39,740 nt of DNA. Origin: Deltaproteobacteria bacterium. Its GTDB lineage: Bacteria > Desulfobacterota > Syntrophia > Syntrophales > JAIPED01. The stretch's first letter is position 1; the number at the start of each line of letters is the position of its first letter. The stretch lies in assembly GCA_021737325.1 (NCBI GenBank), contig JAIPED010000012.1, positions 1 through 39,740 of the forward strand, in the 5' to 3' direction. The position numbers were made by a program, and so were the translations under genes. Below, piece after piece: positions 11,856 through 34,060 of the stretch. The notes beneath the pieces were generated by a model. It had not been told where the DNA came from. It did not search any database and saw only the letters and a program-made list of their open reading frames with translations.

Positions 11856-12290
11856 ATGTTCGCGGACGACATTCAGGTTGTAGGTTTAGACACGGAGGCG
11901 GTTGTGTCTGAAGCGTCTCCTAAAGAAAGCAAGCTATCAGAAAAAAAACCGTTAGCCAAGAAGCCCGTTGTTAAAAAAGCAACGGAAAAGAAAGCGGCGA
12001 TTAAAAAACCGGCGGAGAAGAAGCCCGTTGTCAAAAAAGCCGCAGTGAAAAAGGTCGTGGCTAAGAAGCCCGTAGTCAAGAAAGCCGTAGCTAAAAAGGT
12101 CGTAGCTAAGAAACCCGTAGTCAAGAAAGCCGTAGCTAAAAAGGTCGTAGCCAAGAAACCCGCCGTCAAGAAAGCCGTAGCTAAAAAGGTCGTGGCCAAA
12201 AAACCCGTCGTCAAGAAAGCCGCGGTTAAAAAGGTCGTAGCCAAGAAGCCTGTAGTGAAAAAAACATCCACAAAAACAAAGAAAGTTTAA
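11856..12290 (+). CDS. Histone H1-like Lys/Ala/Val/Pro repeat protein
   Basis: The 144-residue protein has an acidic start (MFADDIQVVGLDTEAVVSEA) followed by about 115 residues of extremely basic low-complexity sequence. From residue 57 it consists of five copies of a 15-residue unit of the type VVAKKPVVKKAVAKK, the last partial, ending KKTSTKTKKV. This resembles the C-terminal tail of histone H1 and bacterial H1-like proteins that bind DNA non-specifically and compact the nucleoid. That role is inference from composition. The start has GGAAGGG seven bases upstream, and a strong bidirectional terminator follows. The open frame on the other strand is a shadow of the repeat. Confidence 0.8.
   Translation: MFADDIQVVGLDTEAVVSEASPKESKLSEKKPLAKKPVVKKATEKKAAIKKPAEKKPVVKKAAVKKVVAKKPVVKKAVAKKVVAKKPVVKKAVAKKVVAKKPAVKKAVAKKVVAKKPVVKKAAVKKVVAKKPVVKKTSTKTKKV
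12024..12263 (+). repeat. 45-bp tandem coding repeat in the histone-like gene
   Basis: About five near-identical 45-bp units (aagaaagccgtagctaaaaa and gtcgtagctaagaaacccgt blocks) encode the 15-residue VVAKKPVVKKAVAKK unit. Units differ mostly at third positions and at gcc/gta for the Pro-Val/Ala positions. Tandem identity of this length predicts copy-number variation by slippage. Confidence 0.85.
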
Positions 12291-19370: not shown

Positions 19371-19733
19371 ATGCTTATTACAACCGATAAAAAAAAGGGG
19401 TTCACGCTGGTAGAATTGTTGGTCGTTATTGCTATAATTGGCATCCTTGCCGCTATAGCAGTCCCCAACTACTTATCGTACAAGAGACGAGGCGCCGACG
19501 CGGCGGCAAAGGCGGATTTGGGGAACTTACGAGTGTCCAAAATTGCCTATTTTAGCAATAACACTGCAGCCGTGGCAGAGGTTGCTACCTTAGCAAGTTA
19601 TGGCTTCGTCCCGAGTGCGGCGGTGGTAATTACCATAGCTAACGGTACAGATACCGGTTTTTCGGCAACGGCCAAGCATAACGATGGCGATACAACCTAC
19701 AACCTGTACGCTAACGGGTCGATTACGCCATAG
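19371..19733 (+). CDS. pilA: Type IV major pilin
   Basis: The structural pilin. It has a class III leader of 10 residues (MLITTDKKKG) cut before Phe, and the mature chain begins FTLVELLVVIAIIGILAAIA with the conserved Glu5. The mature protein is about 110 residues with a small globular part and no cysteine pair, so the usual disulphide loop is absent. A GGGGGAG site precedes the ATG. It has its own promoter (19312) and a terminator (19750), expected for a highly expressed gene upstream of the assembly genes. Short pilins are typical of Geobacter-like bacteria, but this one is longer than the 61-residue conductive form. Confidence 0.92.
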   Translation: MLITTDKKKGFTLVELLVVIAIIGILAAIAVPNYLSYKRRGADAAAKADLGNLRVSKIAYFSNNTAAVAEVATLASYGFVPSAAVVITIANGTDTGFSATAKHNDGDTTYNLYANGSITP

Positions 19734-20222: not shown

Positions 20223-21182
20223 ATGAAGTTCCGCCTACCAAAAATAAATTATGATACTTCAGCGCTGGGGATTGCTCTCAAGGAGCGTTCTCTGGAGATG
20301 GCGCAGGTCGCAAAAACACCCACGGGCTATGCTGTTGAGCGACTTGTTTTTGCCGCAATTCCTCCCCAGACGATCATTGATGGAATGCTTGTAGATGAGA
20401 AGGTTTTTTCTGCCATTTTTGATCGGTTAATCGCCCAGATAGCAAGCAATAACCATCACAATGTAGTGCTTTGCATTCCTGGTTCATCTGCTTTTGTTAA
20501 GCGAATTCTCTTTCCCGCTCCTTCTCGGGAGGAGGTTACCAAGATTCTCCGCGAAGACTTCAACATGTATTTTCCCTTTTCCAGCCATAGTGAAGTCTAT
20601 TTTGATATTGCCGAGATGGGAAAGGGACCTTCAGACCATTTGGAAGTCCTTGTCGTTGCTTGCAAAAAACGAACGATTGATAGCTACTTGGAGGTAATAC
20701 AAGATCTCGGCATTAACCCTATGGCTGTTGATGTCGCTTTTTTTGCCCTCCAAAATCTTTTTGAAACGGTAAATGGGAGGACTGATGTTATTAATATGCT
20801 TGTGGATATCGGATACCCTGAAGTTAACATCAATGTCGTAAAACACGGCATTTCTTTGTTTACCCAGGATATCTTCTTGCCGGAGAGCGTCAATCCCGCC
20901 CATTTTTTAGGAGAGGAAATAGAGCGCGCCATAGTTTACTACGATTCACTAGCCAAGGGGCTCGGTATAGAATGTGGGATCCTAAGCGGCGAGATGGCCT
21001 CGCAAGCTTTATTGGAACATTTGCAAGAAAGGCTACCAGTTCCCCTTCGCCTACTAGAAACATTTCACCATCGGGTGTTGCGGAAAAAAGAAGCCTTTTG
21101 CAAAGCAACAAACACGGAGCTGGCGGGGAAAATGGCTTTGTGTATTGGTGCTGCCATCGGGTTGCTGGAAGCAAATGATTAA
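20223..21182 (+). CDS. pilM: Type IV pilus inner-membrane platform protein PilM
   Basis: PilM is an actin-like cytoplasmic protein that binds the N-terminal tail of PilN and forms the inner-membrane alignment complex. The 319 residues begin with the beta-strand LGIALKERSLEMAQVAKTP and contain the pilM-type VVLCIPGSSAFVKRILFPAPSREEV, MLVDIGYPEVNINVVKHG and a C-terminal CIGAAIGLLE. It is at the short end of the family (about 320-350). Its stop overlaps the ATG of the interrupted pilN by 8 nt. Order pilM-N-O-P-Q is canonical. Confidence 0.9.
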   Translation: MKFRLPKINYDTSALGIALKERSLEMAQVAKTPTGYAVERLVFAAIPPQTIIDGMLVDEKVFSAIFDRLIAQIASNNHHNVVLCIPGSSAFVKRILFPAPSREEVTKILREDFNMYFPFSSHSEVYFDIAEMGKGPSDHLEVLVVACKKRTIDSYLEVIQDLGINPMAVDVAFFALQNLFETVNGRTDVINMLVDIGYPEVNINVVKHGISLFTQDIFLPESVNPAHFLGEEIERAIVYYDSLAKGLGIECGILSGEMASQALLEHLQERLPVPLRLLETFHHRVLRKKEAFCKATNTELAGKMALCIGAAIGLLEAND

Positions 21183-21738
21183 AATTAACCTGTTAAGGGA
21201 TCATTAAAAAAAGAAAAAAGCTCGCCCTGCGCCTAAGAAGAGCTCGTCGCGGGTCCTGGTTTATCTTCCCTATGTCGTTCTGTCTTTGGCAGCGCTCTTA
21301 TACGGGATCTCCTCATGGGAATTGGATTACCGAAAAAGAACCATAGAGTTGCTAAATGAAAGAATCGCTTTTCTGGATAGCACAAATAAAAAAATTCTTA
21401 TTGCTAAGCGGGTCGAGATGAAATTCCAGATAGCGGAATTCGTTAAAGAAGTGCTTGTGCGCAAATCCTCGGGAACGATTGAGACGACAAGAAGGATTGT
21501 GGCTGCGCTAGAACCAACCACGATATGGCTGGAAAGAGTCAGCGTTGGTCCTCAAGAGGTCATCATTTCTGGATTTGCCCACAAAGCACAAGAAATACCC
21601 ACCTACATAAAAAATCTGAAAAGAAACGAAGACTTATTCAAGCAAGTTACCCTCGTGTCTATCAAGCAAGCCGCCAGTAAGGATGGTAAAATCCACGGGT
21701 TGTTAATAAAATGTGAGAGAAGAGGCCCCTCCAGATGA
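21175..21738 (+). pseudogene. pilN: pilN interrupted by an in-frame TAA at codon 11
   Basis: PilN links PilM to PilO in the inner membrane. An ATG at 21175, overlapping the pilM stop, opens MIKINLLRDH, the canonical PilN N-terminus. The next codon is TAA (21205-21207). The very same frame then continues KKKKARPAPKK, a transmembrane helix (VLVYLPYVVLSLAALLYG) and the PilN periplasmic domain to 21738, giving 188 codons, the normal length. No frameshift is needed, only one base change in a Lys, Gln or Glu-type codon. Downstream starts (TTG 21286) lack a ribosome site and would lose the INLL motif that binds PilM. It ends in an ATGA overlap with pilO. Confidence 0.85.
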
Positions 21739-22310
21739 AGGTGACCTTCAAAAATATTAAGGAAAAGCATGCGGGGAAGTTTTTACCAGGGGGGGTACTT
21801 CTCCTCGCGCTGTACATCGCTTGTCTTGCCGCAGATAATTTTTGGAAGGCACAATCGCTTGGTCAAGACATCGCCTCGCGGCAACAAATTATTTTGATGG
21901 GAGAAAGAAAGATTGCCCAAACAGCCGTTGCTTCCTTGTTGCAGGAGGAAGGTTCCCTGCGCATTGCCCAGGTTGAAGAAATACCCTCTTTGCAGAAGGG
22001 CTTACTTAACGCTCTTTCCGCAATAGGTGATCTGGAGTTGCGTTCTTGGGAGACAATTCCGCCAGTAAATCCCAAATCGCTACTTGCCTTGGGAGACAGC
22101 ACTGTTGTGGAAAATTATTTGCGCATTACCACCGTAGGTAGTTTTGAAAAAAACAAAGCATTTTGGGAAGTTATTGATACAATCAGCCTGGCTCATGAGG
22201 TTGAATCCCTTCTTTTGGAGGGTGTTGTAGCAGAAGGGAATAGGGTGGATATTGGGATGACGCTGGTTCTCAAGTTATTTGTTTTGATGGAGAATAAAAA
22301 TGGTTCGTAA
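21735..22310 (+). CDS. pilO: Type IV pilus inner-membrane protein PilO
   Basis: PilO pairs with PilN through periplasmic coiled coils and a ferredoxin-like fold. The 191 residues have a short cytoplasmic start, one transmembrane helix at about 17-36 (LPGGVLLLALYIACLAADNF), a coiled region at about 40-70, and an alpha/beta domain ending VLKLFVLMENKN. Sequence identity in this family is low; position between pilN and pilP and the topology carry the assignment. It overlaps pilN by 4 nt and pilP by 11 nt. Confidence 0.82.
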   Translation: MKVTFKNIKEKHAGKFLPGGVLLLALYIACLAADNFWKAQSLGQDIASRQQIILMGERKIAQTAVASLLQEEGSLRIAQVEEIPSLQKGLLNALSAIGDLELRSWETIPPVNPKSLLALGDSTVVENYLRITTVGSFEKNKAFWEVIDTISLAHEVESLLLEGVVAEGNRVDIGMTLVLKLFVLMENKNGS

Positions 22311-22698
22311 CAGATTGTGGTTCCCGCTGTTAGTTGTAGTTGTTTCATTTATTATCGCTTTTTCTGCCCTCGCCCGTGATCCCTTCGCACCCCAACTAAA
22401 AACTCAATCAGCCAAGGATTATACGGCGGCTAACCATAACGCTTCGCTAAGAGATTTTGACATTCAACATACCGCCGTTTTGGGGATTGCGATACGAGAG
22501 AATAACACGGTTGTGATGCTACACGATAACATAACAGGAGCCTCTCTTCCTGCCCGGCGAGGGAGTTTGATCGGGACCAAGGGGCATAGGATTACGGAAA
22601 TTCACGATAATCAAGTTGTGATTAGCGCCGAAAAACCTGCGAGACAGGGAAAAAACACCTTCGTGCTGTCGATAGGAAAGAAAGGGGATAACCCATGA
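22300..22698 (+). CDS. pilP: Type IV pilus assembly protein PilP
   Basis: PilP connects PilN/O to the secretin. The 132 residues have an N-terminal hydrophobic helix (8-26), then the family hallmark RDPFAPQ directly after it, and a beta-rich domain whose core reads TAVLGIAIRENNTVVMLHD and GSLIGTKGHRITEIHDNQVVIS, the HQ-domain pattern. There is no lipobox cysteine, so it is not the usual lipoprotein and is probably anchored by its uncleaved or cleaved signal helix. The order and the overlap with pilQ (ATGA) support the call. Confidence 0.87.
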   Translation: MVRNRLWFPLLVVVVSFIIAFSALARDPFAPQLKTQSAKDYTAANHNASLRDFDIQHTAVLGIAIRENNTVVMLHDNITGASLPARRGSLIGTKGHRITEIHDNQVVISAEKPARQGKNTFVLSIGKKGDNP

Positions 22699-24020
22699 AA
22701 AACCATCACGCAAAAAAAATTGCTCCCCATTTTATCCTCTGTTTGTTGACGGTGCTCTTTTTTCACCATAGCGCCTTGCACGCGGAATCGGAGAATATCG
22801 CCAAAAATGCAACCCACCCAAGGGTGGAGTTTTCTAGTTCCGAGAATATTTCTTTAGATATTAGCAACATGGACATCAAATCAGCAATTTGGCTAATTGC
22901 GGAAATAAGCCAGCAAAACATCGTTTATAATAATGAAATCGGGGGAACCGTTTCCGCCAAGCTTACTGATGTCCATTGGCGCTCGGCGCTCAAAACCGTT
23001 GCGAAGCTCGTCGGCTTAGTTGTCGTGGAGGGGGAAGGAGTCACTTCCGTAACCACAGTTGACCGATTGCTAAAGAGTAATGAGGAAAAACGGCACCTTG
23101 AAAAAGGACTCTGGGAAGCGGAGGTTGCTAAAAAGGAAAGGGAACAAGGAGTGCTTGCCGCAAGAGGCAAGCTACAACAGGTAACGATAGAAGCCAAGAT
23201 CGTGGAGGTTTCCGACGATTTTGCCCGCTCGCTAGGAATTCGTTGGGGAGGCTCATTAAGGGGTACGGGGCAATACCCCTCTCAGCTTGTCGCGGGCACA
23301 AACCCCCCAACAAACCGTTTAGTTAGCGCGGCGTATCCCGATGGAATTGCGTTTGTTGATGCCTCAGGAAAATCCCTCTCAATGGCGCCCGTTAACTTTC
23401 CCTCCTCTCTTGCTTCTCCCACCTTGGGGTTTGTCATCGGCGGCTCCAACGCCGTTTTAGAAGCACAGCTACAAGCTTTGGAAACTAACAGCCAAGGCAG
23501 AATAATATCCTCTCCGCGAATTACAACCATTGACAATGTTAAGGCCACCATTTCGCAGGGGGAAGAAATTCCGTATGTAACTCCCGGCACTTCAACAACC
23601 CCTGCCTCGGTTAACTTCAAGCAAGCGCTATTAAAGCTGGAGGTAAAACCGTCAATAACGGCGGAAGGAAAGATAGCCCTAGAGGTATTGGCAACCAACG
23701 ATTGGCCAAACTACAGCAAGGCAACAGCGCTAACGAACTATGTTCCGCCAATAAGCACCAGCATGATAGAATCGAAGGTTGTTATCAACGATGGCGATAC
23801 GCTGGTAATCGGAGGAATACATAAAAGTAGCAATTCGACAGGAGTTAGCGGTGTTCCCTTCCTCCAAAAAATTCCCCTGATCGGCTGGTTCTTCAAATCC
23901 GAAGATGTAAGCAATGCACATAAACAGCTACTTGTCTTTGTTACTCCTCGTATCGTTCCCGAAGAAAAATCGGTGCTGACTAAGGAAGAAGAGCGATTAT
24001 GGAAAATGAATGCCCGCTAA
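22695..24020 (+). CDS. pilQ: Type IV pilus secretin PilQ, compact form
   Basis: PilQ forms the outer-membrane pore. The 441 residues are far shorter than the usual 600-900. After a signal peptide (about 1-30) comes one STN/N0-like domain at about 50-125 (ISLDISNMDIKSAIWLIAEIS), a charged linker at about 130-155, then the secretin domain from about 157 (VTIEAKIVEVSDDFARSLGI). It ends with the signature VIGGIHKSSN...VPFLQKIPLIGWFF and LLVFVTPRIV. The N-terminal AMIN domains that bind peptidoglycan in most PilQ proteins are absent, as are extra N1 repeats. It ends 12 nt from the convergent pilX-like gene. Confidence 0.9.
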   Translation: MKNHHAKKIAPHFILCLLTVLFFHHSALHAESENIAKNATHPRVEFSSSENISLDISNMDIKSAIWLIAEISQQNIVYNNEIGGTVSAKLTDVHWRSALKTVAKLVGLVVVEGEGVTSVTTVDRLLKSNEEKRHLEKGLWEAEVAKKEREQGVLAARGKLQQVTIEAKIVEVSDDFARSLGIRWGGSLRGTGQYPSQLVAGTNPPTNRLVSAAYPDGIAFVDASGKSLSMAPVNFPSSLASPTLGFVIGGSNAVLEAQLQALETNSQGRIISSPRITTIDNVKATISQGEEIPYVTPGTSTTPASVNFKQALLKLEVKPSITAEGKIALEVLATNDWPNYSKATALTNYVPPISTSMIESKVVINDGDTLVIGGIHKSSNSTGVSGVPFLQKIPLIGWFFKSEDVSNAHKQLLVFVTPRIVPEEKSVLTKEEERLWKMNAR

Positions 24021-24032
24021 TTGTGCTTAACT

Positions 24033-25091
24033 CTAAAGATTGCGGGTTAGATACACGGCTAATACCTTTGTCAGAAATCTGTTTATCCTTTTGAGGTTGG
24101 CAAAAGCCTCTGAGCTATAAACGATGTTAGGCTTGGTTCCATTAAGAATGATGGTACTGCCCGCGGGAGGGCTCACAAAAATCACCGTGCCATAGATATG
24201 GTTGTTGGTCCCGCCACTGATATTGGCGTTGCCCATGAGAAGCACCAACCCCTCAAAATGCACGCCAGCGGCAAAGCTCGCCTGCGAGTTATTCCCTACG
24301 ATTAAGAGACCAGCTCCATCCGCGTCTATCACCAGCGATTGTCCATCAGGTATGCGGGTGATTAGGGGTTCTTCGCGAGTGCCAACCTGTGTTGCTGAAA
24401 TCGGGATACCTTGGGTTGCGATGTAACTGTTCAGCATCAATAAATCTTGCTGGTTGTTAATAACACCACCGCTGGAGGAATTGTATATTGATGGAACGGA
24501 ATTAAAGGTTGCCAGCTCAACAGGAGCACATCCGCTATGCCTACAGGAAAACAAGGAGGGGAGTTTGTAATCGTTACCCAAAACGGAAGAAACGCCGACA
24601 ACCACCGCAGGGGAAGAGCCGCTGGAATATACGCAAACAGCTCCATCGGTGCCATGGGGGCTGGGCAACGAAGCAAAAATAATATCACCAACACCTCGCG
24701 CAACAAGACCTCCAAAACCTACAACCTGCGCACGATAACGGTTGGCTCCGATGTTCGTAACCGTAACCGAGCTGTTGTACGCAAACCCCTCCTCAACATC
24801 CACGCCTAAAACAATAACAGCACCAGGGAATGGAGGTAGGGAGAGATTTTCGGAGCGAATTTTGGCGATTAACTGCGCCATTCCCGCTTCTGTTTGATAG
24901 CGAGCGTCCACACTGTCAAAAAAGTTATATCCCGTTTTCAGGGCTGGTTGGATTATGATGTATAAATAAAAAATGAAGGTGAAAATAAGGAGCAACACGA
25001 CAAGCACCGCGACTAGGGCAAAACCCTCTGTGCCGCTTTTGCTCCCGCTCGTTTGCCTGAATTTAACTCGTCGCATTTTACATTGTTCCAT
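24033..25091 (-). CDS. PilX/GspK-like minor pilin with long passenger region
   Basis: The protein has a prepilin-like start: EG followed by FALVAVLVVLLLIFTFIFYLY, but without Glu5, as in GspK/PilX tip pilins. I place the start at ATG 25091 (MEQCKMRRV), overlapping the pilW-like gene by 14 nt; ATG 25076 is also possible. The frame is open to 25142. The passenger (about 300 residues) is rich in Ser, Gly, Val and Asn and has a Cys pair (LFSCRHSGCAP), with a C-terminal beta-helix-like stretch (LLIVGNNSQASFAAGVHFEGLVLL). A tip-adhesin or tip-complex role is inference. It is the last gene of the pal-cpoB-minor pilin operon. Confidence 0.75.
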   Translation of the reverse strand: MEQCKMRRVKFRQTSGSKSGTEGFALVAVLVVLLLIFTFIFYLYIIIQPALKTGYNFFDSVDARYQTEAGMAQLIAKIRSENLSLPPFPGAVIVLGVDVEEGFAYNSSVTVTNIGANRYRAQVVGFGGLVARGVGDIIFASLPSPHGTDGAVCVYSSGSSPAVVVGVSSVLGNDYKLPSLFSCRHSGCAPVELATFNSVPSIYNSSSGGVINNQQDLLMLNSYIATQGIPISATQVGTREEPLITRIPDGQSLVIDADGAGLLIVGNNSQASFAAGVHFEGLVLLMGNANISGGTNNHIYGTVIFVSPPAGSTIILNGTKPNIVYSSEAFANLKRINRFLTKVLAVYLTRNL

Positions 25092-25737
25092 GCCCAATGT
25101 TTTTGGTGGCGATTTCAAAGGTGTAGTCATGACGGGAATCATCCTTCCAAAATACCGACAAATCCACTTTTACCCTGCGAATGCTTTCTAGGCTTGTTGC
25201 TACCGTGCCGTTTTCATTGAAGTATGAAAAGCGAAGATACCTTGCTAAAGCCAAGTCAGCTCCCCGTAATGCTATCAGAGGGCTATGGGAGGCATTGCCA
25301 ACCGCTCTACCCAGCACGATGGTATTCCAGTTTTCGGATGCACTTTTGTAAACATCATAACCAATACGCTCGGCGGTTCCTGTAAACTCGCCATCAGAAG
25401 CAACGATTATCTTGTGAGGACTGGCAAACTCCACTCCCACGCAGGGAGCGTTTGTCGCCTGCGCTGTGTCATCGAGAAATTGGCCATGGCAGAGGGGGAG
25501 CAGACCTGTTTGCGTTAAGTTGTTCCCGAATCCTGCTAGGCTAATTTCACTCTGCATCAGGGAAATTGCGGTAATGATATCGGTGTTTAGCGAGACATAT
25601 CTTTCGGTTGTGCGCTTAGTATTATAAAAGGAGTTGAAAATCCCGTATAATGCAAAGATGACCAGCATCCCTATGGCCGTGGCAATCAAGACCTCCATGA
25701 GGGTAAAACCCGCTTGTTGTTTTTGTTGCTGTAGCAT
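25078..25737 (-). CDS. PilW-like minor pilin
   Basis: A 219-residue prepilin: leader MLQQQKQQAG, then FTLMEVLIATAIGMLVIFAL with Glu5, then FNSFYNTKRTTERYVSLNTDIITAISLMQSEISLAGFGNN, a pattern typical of PilW / GspJ-type minor pilins (a long alpha helix leading to a GFGN turn). Cys residues at about 89 and 104 could pair. It is packed 2 nt from the pilV-like gene. It probably helps prime pilus assembly with the other minor pilins. Confidence 0.83.
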   Translation of the reverse strand: MLQQQKQQAGFTLMEVLIATAIGMLVIFALYGIFNSFYNTKRTTERYVSLNTDIITAISLMQSEISLAGFGNNLTQTGLLPLCHGQFLDDTAQATNAPCVGVEFASPHKIIVASDGEFTGTAERIGYDVYKSASENWNTIVLGRAVGNASHSPLIALRGADLALARYLRFSYFNENGTVATSLESIRRVKVDLSVFWKDDSRHDYTFEIATKNIGHGTM

Positions 25738-25739
25738 TG

Positions 25740-26117
25740 TTAGGGAAGAAGGATGGTTTTTAATGCAACGCTTCTTGTAGGTGCGGAGGGACAGGAAGCG
25801 TTTACGAAGATCTTTGCCCTATTCTCCTCCTTCACAATCCTCCAAGATAACAGGCAATCACTCCCCGCAACCGTGCTATTGGTAGTGGTAACAAGGTTTT
25901 TAAAGGGAATGCTCTTTATTTCCTCAATTTTTGTTGTAGCAAGCATCACGATTTTAGTCTCTTCATAGGCGATGGAACTCCTATTGATGAATACAGCAAG
26001 CAGATTAACCACTGGAGGAACAAATAAAGCGATAATTACCATCGCGATAAGAACCTCAACAATGGTGTGCCCAGACTGGCTGTTGATAGAATCAGGCAGA
26101 ATTTGTCTTTGTTTCAT
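25740..26117 (-). CDS. PilV-like minor pilin with His at the cleavage site
   Basis: A 125-residue prepilin with a 16-residue leader ending NSQSG, followed by HTIVEVLIAMVIIALFVPPVVNLL with Glu5. The +1 residue is His rather than the usual Phe or Met. The mature sequence contains TKIVMLATTKIEEIKSIPF, the ATxxIEEIKS pattern of PilV / GspI proteins, and two cysteines near the end. It lies 7 nt downstream of the fimT-like gene. Confidence 0.8.
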   Translation of the reverse strand: MKQRQILPDSINSQSGHTIVEVLIAMVIIALFVPPVVNLLAVFINRSSIAYEETKIVMLATTKIEEIKSIPFKNLVTTTNSTVAGSDCLLSWRIVKEENRAKIFVNASCPSAPTRSVALKTILLP

Positions 26118-26124
26118 CCAGCGA

Positions 26125-26601
26125 TTAAAAATAAGTTATCGTCGTTCCCTGCCCCAAATTGATGCTCACCTTTGCGGATTTCCCCGTGCTCTTTTGGGTA
26201 AAAATCATGGAGCGTGATTGTATTCCTTCTCCATTAGCCTTGAACAAAAAGGGCTGCGAGTAAGAACTAATAACGATGTTGCCACTGTATGACGATAGGT
26301 CACGGGTGAGAAATATCTCTTCCTCCGCATCGTAAGCTTGATTGTTATTAGCATCAACAAAGGCATAATAACCAGTATCGGCAGAAGCAAATATTCGGGT
26401 TCTTTGGTTGAGAGCTATTGCTTTGGTACGAGCTAACTCCAAATCCATCTTAAGAGCTTCGCCAACATTGCGTAGCCCTGATTCAAGCGCCGTATCTCGG
26501 AAAAAATTCAAAGAAAGCCCAGCAATAAGAAACATTATGGCAATAACTATAAGCAACTCAACAAGCGAAAAACCTTTTTGATAGCGCACCACTACCAACA
26601 C
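26125..26601 (-). CDS. FimT/GspH-like minor pilin
   Basis: A 158-residue prepilin with leader MLVVVRYQKG, then FSLVELLIVIAIMFLIAGLSL and Glu5. The mature part shows the GspH/FimT pattern: LKMDLELARTKAIALNQRTRIF followed by strands with DANNNQAYDAEEEIF. Together with the pilV-, pilW- and pilX-like genes downstream it completes a minor-pilin priming set. It follows cpoB after 8 nt in the same operon. Confidence 0.83.
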   Translation of the reverse strand: MLVVVRYQKGFSLVELLIVIAIMFLIAGLSLNFFRDTALESGLRNVGEALKMDLELARTKAIALNQRTRIFASADTGYYAFVDANNNQAYDAEEEIFLTRDLSSYSGNIVISSYSQPFLFKANGEGIQSRSMIFTQKSTGKSAKVSINLGQGTTITYF

Positions 26602-33338: not shown

Positions 33339-34060
33339 ATGTTGAAGAAAGTTGGCCTGGCATTAGCCGCAATCCTTAGCGTTGGAGTCATCGCTTTCTG
33401 TATTTTTGTTTTGCCGTTTGTGATGACGGTAAGGGATTTCAAACCGTCGGAAACCGGAAGAGTTGCCGATGAAATCTACGCTGTAACCGACAACAGATTT
33501 GTTTCAATGTTTGTTCTGAAGTCAGGCGATGATCTCATTGGGTTTGACGCCGGGAATGATATTGAGAATATTGAAGCCGGTTTCAAAGAACTGAATCTTG
33601 ATCCCCTGAAAATCAAGGCGATCTTTCTAACGCACAGTGATGAAGACCATGTTCGTTCCCTCCCTCTGTTCAAGAACGCAACGGTATATCTGCCGCAAAA
33701 GGAAGAGCCTCTTGTTACCGGGAAGGAAAAGCGGAAGTTCCTGATTTTCACGAGAATCAACGCTCTGCCAGTGAGTAACTACACATGTTGATTGCAGACG
33801 GGAAGGAATTCAATTTTGACGGAGCAACCGTGAAGGCGTATCTCACGCCAGGACATACGATTGGTTCAACCTCGTACTTGATCAATGGCAAGTATCTTGT
33901 CGTGGGGGATTTGGCCTTGGTGGAAGATGGAAAGCTGGTTCCCATGCCTAAACCACCTTCCGAGAATATTGAGGTCCTTAAGGAATCATTGGTCAAGATC
34001 GTAGAAATGAAGGGTGTTGAAATGGTTCTGACAGCACATACAGGAGTCTTTAGGAGGTAG
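33339..34060 (+). pseudogene. Frameshifted metallo-beta-lactamase-fold hydrolase
   Basis: The first frame (33339-33791) encodes an N-terminal membrane helix and the start of an MBL-fold domain with AIFLTHSDEDHVRSLPLFKN, the zinc-binding H-x-D-x-D-H variant. It stops at TGA 33789. A second frame (33785-34060) continues the same fold without loss: LIADGKEFNF, YLTPGHTIGSTSYLI, VVGDLALV, and VLTAHTGVF with the last His ligands. One missing base near ACACATGTTG (about 33781-33790) explains the break; restoring it gives about 240 residues. So it is a recent pseudogene or a sequencing error. The first gene of the island, immediately before an attC-like site. Confidence 0.8.

Follow-up and report, generated by a model that had tools for sequence, protein, structure and literature searches.

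Codon 11 of pilN is an in-frame TAA in a Syntrophales draft genome, probably through a recent nonsense mutation under relaxed constraint on the pilus

Does the TAA at codon 11 of a Syntrophales pilN gene reflect a real loss of function, a stop that is bypassed during translation, or an error in the assembled sequence? The gene is encoded in a window of 39,740 nucleotides, i.e., the whole stretch of DNA that was analysed, which corresponds to bases 1-39740 of its contig in a 1.49 Mb draft genome (72 contigs, 89% complete). Elsewhere, the window encodes a histone H1-like protein of 144 aa built of Lys/Ala/Val repeats with KKPVVKKAVAKK units (11856-12290).

The pilN reading frame and its eleventh codon

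pilN is located between pilM and pilO and overlaps both genes. At the upstream overlap, the start ATG (21175-21177) and the pilM stop TAA (21180-21182) lie as the original prediction had stated. The features of this part of the operon are:

20223 to 21182, plus strand: pilM, an open frame of 319 aa that has neither GLDIGS nor the 2B-like segment of about 57 aa (PF11104, alignment, tree, Foldseek)
21175 to 21738, plus strand: pilN, with an in-frame TAA at codon 11
21175 to 21204, plus strand: pilN codons 1-10, MIKINLLRDH, comprising the start and the PilM-binding INLL motif (sequence, aligned with 91 relatives)
21205 to 21207, plus strand: TAA, pilN codon 11; 89 of 91 relatives have Glu in this column (sequence, alignment)
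21206 to 21212, plus strand: run of seven A, immediately 3' of the T of the pilN stop (sequence)
21208 to 21738, plus strand: remainder of pilN, i.e., Lys-rich linker, membrane/coiled-coil helix, periplasmic PilN domain and TGA (PF05137, AlphaFold, Foldseek)

Downstream of the TAA, the same frame continues with KKKKARPAPKK and stays open for 176 codons up to the TGA at 21736-21738, with coding-like codon use. Searched alone, this post-stop part matches Pfam family PF05137 with an E-value of 3.6e-8 (33.8 bits compared to a curated cut-off of 22.8; residues 103-156), and it is the only PF05137 match in the genome. pilN is thus not one uninterrupted frame, and the earlier description of a frame that is intact apart from a TAA at codon 11 and leads into the whole PilN domain is borne out.

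The AlphaFold model of PilN (pLDDT 82.9) consists of a helix spanning residues 13-85, followed by a strand-strand-helix-strand-strand domain with a pLDDT of about 90. In Foldseek, the best matches go to PilO and to XcpY, EpsL and PulL/PulM periplasmic domains (GspL/GspM homologues), all of them weak (E 1e-3 to 1e-2). Together, both methods yield an architecture of membrane helix, coiled coil and ferredoxin-like periplasmic domain. The protein hence resembles PilN of type IVa pili (PF05137; PilMNOPQ operons) in its gene order pilM-N-O-P-Q, its INLL start motif, its single membrane helix with subsequent coiled coil and its periplasmic domain matching PF05137. In contrast to these proteins, it carries the stop at codon 11, shares only 13-21% identity with its relatives and has Arg-Asp in place of the Pro-Tyr that follows INLL. 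Residues 8-10 read RDH here and PYR in relatives, position 8 being Pro in 90 of 91 of them. The INLL motif itself is kept, but the stop severs it from the remainder. Three papers establish that this tail binds PilM, in line with the original prediction (PMC5805733, PMC13039148, PMC3724824), and the structures cited in two of them provide the structural basis (PMC5805733, PMC13039148). Thermus pilN mutants are described as lacking pili (PMC13039148).

For comparison, PilN N-termini were gathered beside PilM from 115 loci, representing 91 distinct Syntrophales sequences, the nearest of which share only the order with this genome. All 91 start with MI[KR]INLL or a motif near it. Column 11 is occupied by Glu (89), Asp (1) or Val (1), and none of the 91 N-termini contains an internal stop. 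Among further loci sampled from the phylum, Glu is likewise frequent at this column (five of the seven read). Judging from the alignment, the position of the TAA is not a matter of chance, since it falls on a column that is Glu in nearly all distinct relatives. The near-invariant Glu and the lack of stops in relatives therefore identify the TAA as a single substitution of a sense codon, and the commonest codon of relatives at this column is one base away from TAA. Hence, the proposal that one substitution explains the stop withstands the codon comparison suggested for sister genomes, which was run here on order-level relatives.

Other searches yielded no close relative of the locus. A scan of public genomes with the single PilM sequence gave no match, an alignment-based scan recovered 80 more distant Syntrophales-type loci, and PilN had two weak matches in 155 genomes of the order. 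Among the matches listed for 395 genomes across the phylum, no PilM exceeded 34% identity; lateral acquisition from any relative in the sample is thus not indicated.

Bypass of the stop during expression

In a sample of about 434 kb of this genome, 256 ORFs reach 200 codons or more, and 124 of them end in TAA, the commonest stop; pilM itself ends in TAA as well. Reassignment of the codon was rejected on these grounds. All 39 tRNAs found with Rfam in the 89% complete genome have sense anticodons and none reads UAA. A stimulatory RNA structure 3' of the stop was not detected either (z 0.89 over 116 nt, no better than shuffles). Transcriptional slippage on the A7 run was likewise rejected: the T of the stop is located 5' of the run, and slippage there cannot remove the TAA.

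Candidate in-frame restarts are codon 28 (CTG) and, as the first canonical start, the TTG of codon 38 (21286), which lies within the membrane helix. A Shine-Dalgarno-like sequence is absent at both, which agrees with the earlier statement that no good restart site exists. Any restart product would be devoid of the INLL tail and, if initiated at the TTG, also of half the helix.

As TAA is an ordinary stop with no tRNA to read it, no restart and no structure, the stop is unlikely to be read through, and we expect no PilN. The read-through originally offered as one option thus finds no support, and no relative carries a stop at the same place. There is accordingly little chance that PilN is produced at a low level via read-through or re-initiation. 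The open, coding-like frame downstream would fit such production, and a small amount might be enough for a low-copy platform. Yet the missing suppressor tRNA, the wide use of TAA as a stop, the lack of a stable structure, the intact relatives and a truncated restart product all speak against it.

Base error compared to real lesion

The pilN of the organism would be intact if the TAA were a base error of the consensus, or if the assembler had picked a variant from a minority strain in this metagenome-type draft. We regard this as possible but doubtful. The fragmented and incomplete state of the draft is compatible with it, as are the open remainder of pilN, which folds well in prediction, and the intact frame in all 91 comparable relatives. 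Moreover, drafts of this type do contain errors or genuine lesions. In another Syntrophales draft (G026; L022, contig 15), a single-base change in the pilM/pilN ATGA overlap extends pilM and removes the pilN start, which is either an independent lesion or an error. Within the window, an MBL-fold hydrolase gene (33339-34060) is frameshifted near 33785, with two frames matching complementary parts of PF00753.

To the contrary, when 443 kb of this genome was surveyed for lesions against 1.17 Mb of another Syntrophales genome, none of the 169 conserved regions (166 kb) held a convincing one, so conserved genes here seldom carry errors. Three regions were flagged, two of them through apparently spurious alignments. 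The third is a CopA-like metal P-type ATPase (L166:6960-9152, minus strand, contig C41) in which TGA stands in place of the first Cys codon of GMTCxxC. This TGA perhaps encodes selenocysteine, which is possible because SelB is encoded in the genome (C47:6871-8742); a clear tRNA-Sec was not found in the assembly.

The type of change also bears on the question. The pilN frame is identical on either side of the stop, so a single homopolymer indel, a common type of error, cannot be its cause. A stop that is only apparent could also result from two compensating indels that shift the frame locally, and the A-rich stretch and the RDH at residues 8-10 would suit them. However, two events would be required, and the Lys tract is read in frame after the same number of codons as in relatives, with no gap, which makes this reading extremely improbable. 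The altered residues 8-10 and a degenerate PilM furthermore point to real relaxation rather than to a base error.

State of the pilus system and origin of the lesion

PilM is clearly recognised by PF11104 (E 4.5e-24; 85.4 bits, cut-off 27) but stays below the cut-off of TIGR01175 (98.7 vs 133 bits). Foldseek matches to PilM structures (5EOY, 5EOU, 2YCH) indicate that the fold is kept. Identity to Syntrophales PilM is 26-31%, whereas these share 44-89% among themselves, and the PilM branch in the tree is extreme (7.9 changes per column). Genome-wide, the 158 reciprocal best hits with a reference genome have a median identity of 48.8%. In the alignment, GIALKE stands in place of GLDIGS, and this PilM has a gap of about 57 columns after FT[RQ]D; we take the missing segment to be subdomain 2B of PilM structures. 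Based on these sequence differences, ATP binding by PilM may be lost. Alternatively, the divergence could represent rebuilding rather than decay.

The remaining pilus genes of the window are:

19371 to 19733, plus strand: pilin-like gene with a GFTLVELLVV signal (sequence)
21735 to 22310, plus strand: pilO-like frame, assigned by position, starting within the pilN stop (ATGA), no Pfam match
22300 to 22698, plus strand: pilP-like frame with a weak match (PF04351, E 0.0074, under the cut-off)
22695 to 24020, plus strand: pilQ secretin (PF00263, E 8.7e-47; TIGR02515, 280.3 bits compared to a cut-off of 284.35)
24033 to 26601, minus strand: minor pilin-like block of four ORFs, two with N_methyl/GspH matches

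Genome-wide, a single T2SSE ATPase scores over the cut-off, a PilB-like protein with an N-terminal extension that contains a GAF-like region (C62), compared to 2-12 T2SSE matches in each of 60 relatives. PilT was not found in the 89% complete genome, which also carries one PilC and one prepilin peptidase (PilD). The original prediction considered all other pilus genes intact. This holds for the frames of pilO, pilP, pilQ, PilB, PilC and PilD, which are open, but not for the system as a whole, as PilM is strongly degenerate and PilT was not detected.

Judged from sequence, the degenerate PilM and the missing PilT favour a real pilN lesion over a base error. We therefore consider it probable that the nonsense mutation is real and recent, and that constraint on the pilus system is relaxed. 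There are also points against this reading. A single substitution such as this TAA can be a consensus error, and the open remainder of pilN together with the open pilO, pilP, pilQ, PilB, PilC and PilD frames is not predicted by an old loss. The open frames after the stop argue for recency and at the same time leave room for a consensus error.

If the mutation is real, it would be fixed or at least present in the sampled strain. Ribosomes would initiate at the pilM/pilN overlap, synthesise a peptide of 10 residues and terminate. Membrane-anchored PilN would then not be made and the tether for PilM would be lost. Translation of pilO is probably coupled to that of pilN, because pilO starts in the pilN stop (ATGA). 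Early termination may hence lower PilO too, as this coupling would be lost, and presumably no pilus would be assembled. The lesion most likely arose because constraint on the pilus was already relaxed in a reduced lineage, as suggested by the degenerate PilM, the altered PilN motif and the lack of PilT. Like pseudogenes in reduced genomes, it occurs in a small genome with fast-evolving genes and a missing partner (PilT); unlike them, it is the only lesion in the pil operon, in which the other frames are open.

Selection by pilus-binding phages is another possible cause, by analogy to Pseudomonas aeruginosa. Under such selection, P. aeruginosa commonly loses alignment proteins, and the null mutations obtained in their genes include a frameshift in pilN and a nonsense change in pilO (PMC13170266). 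The likeness lies in lone nonsense or frameshift lesions in pilM, pilN, pilO, pilP or pilQ, which abolish assembly in P. aeruginosa. However, those mutants stem from laboratory selection (PMC13170266), whereas the present case is an unselected draft genome. It is very improbable that the platform has instead been rebuilt into a stripped-down, secretion-like pilus, with a PilM lacking the nucleotide site and 2B, one ATPase and a PilN made by weak re-initiation or read-through without the PilM tether.

The stop is ordinary in kind, and most likely an ordinary loss of function in a pilus that was already degenerating. Should it prove to be an error, it would be wrong to call this genome pilus-negative. 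A real stop would date the point at which a syntroph with a small genome lost pilus assembly, and would suggest an order of losses in which the retraction ATPase and the PilM nucleotide site preceded PilN. It would also bear on whether the bacterium is capable of twitching, DNA uptake and pilus contacts with partners.
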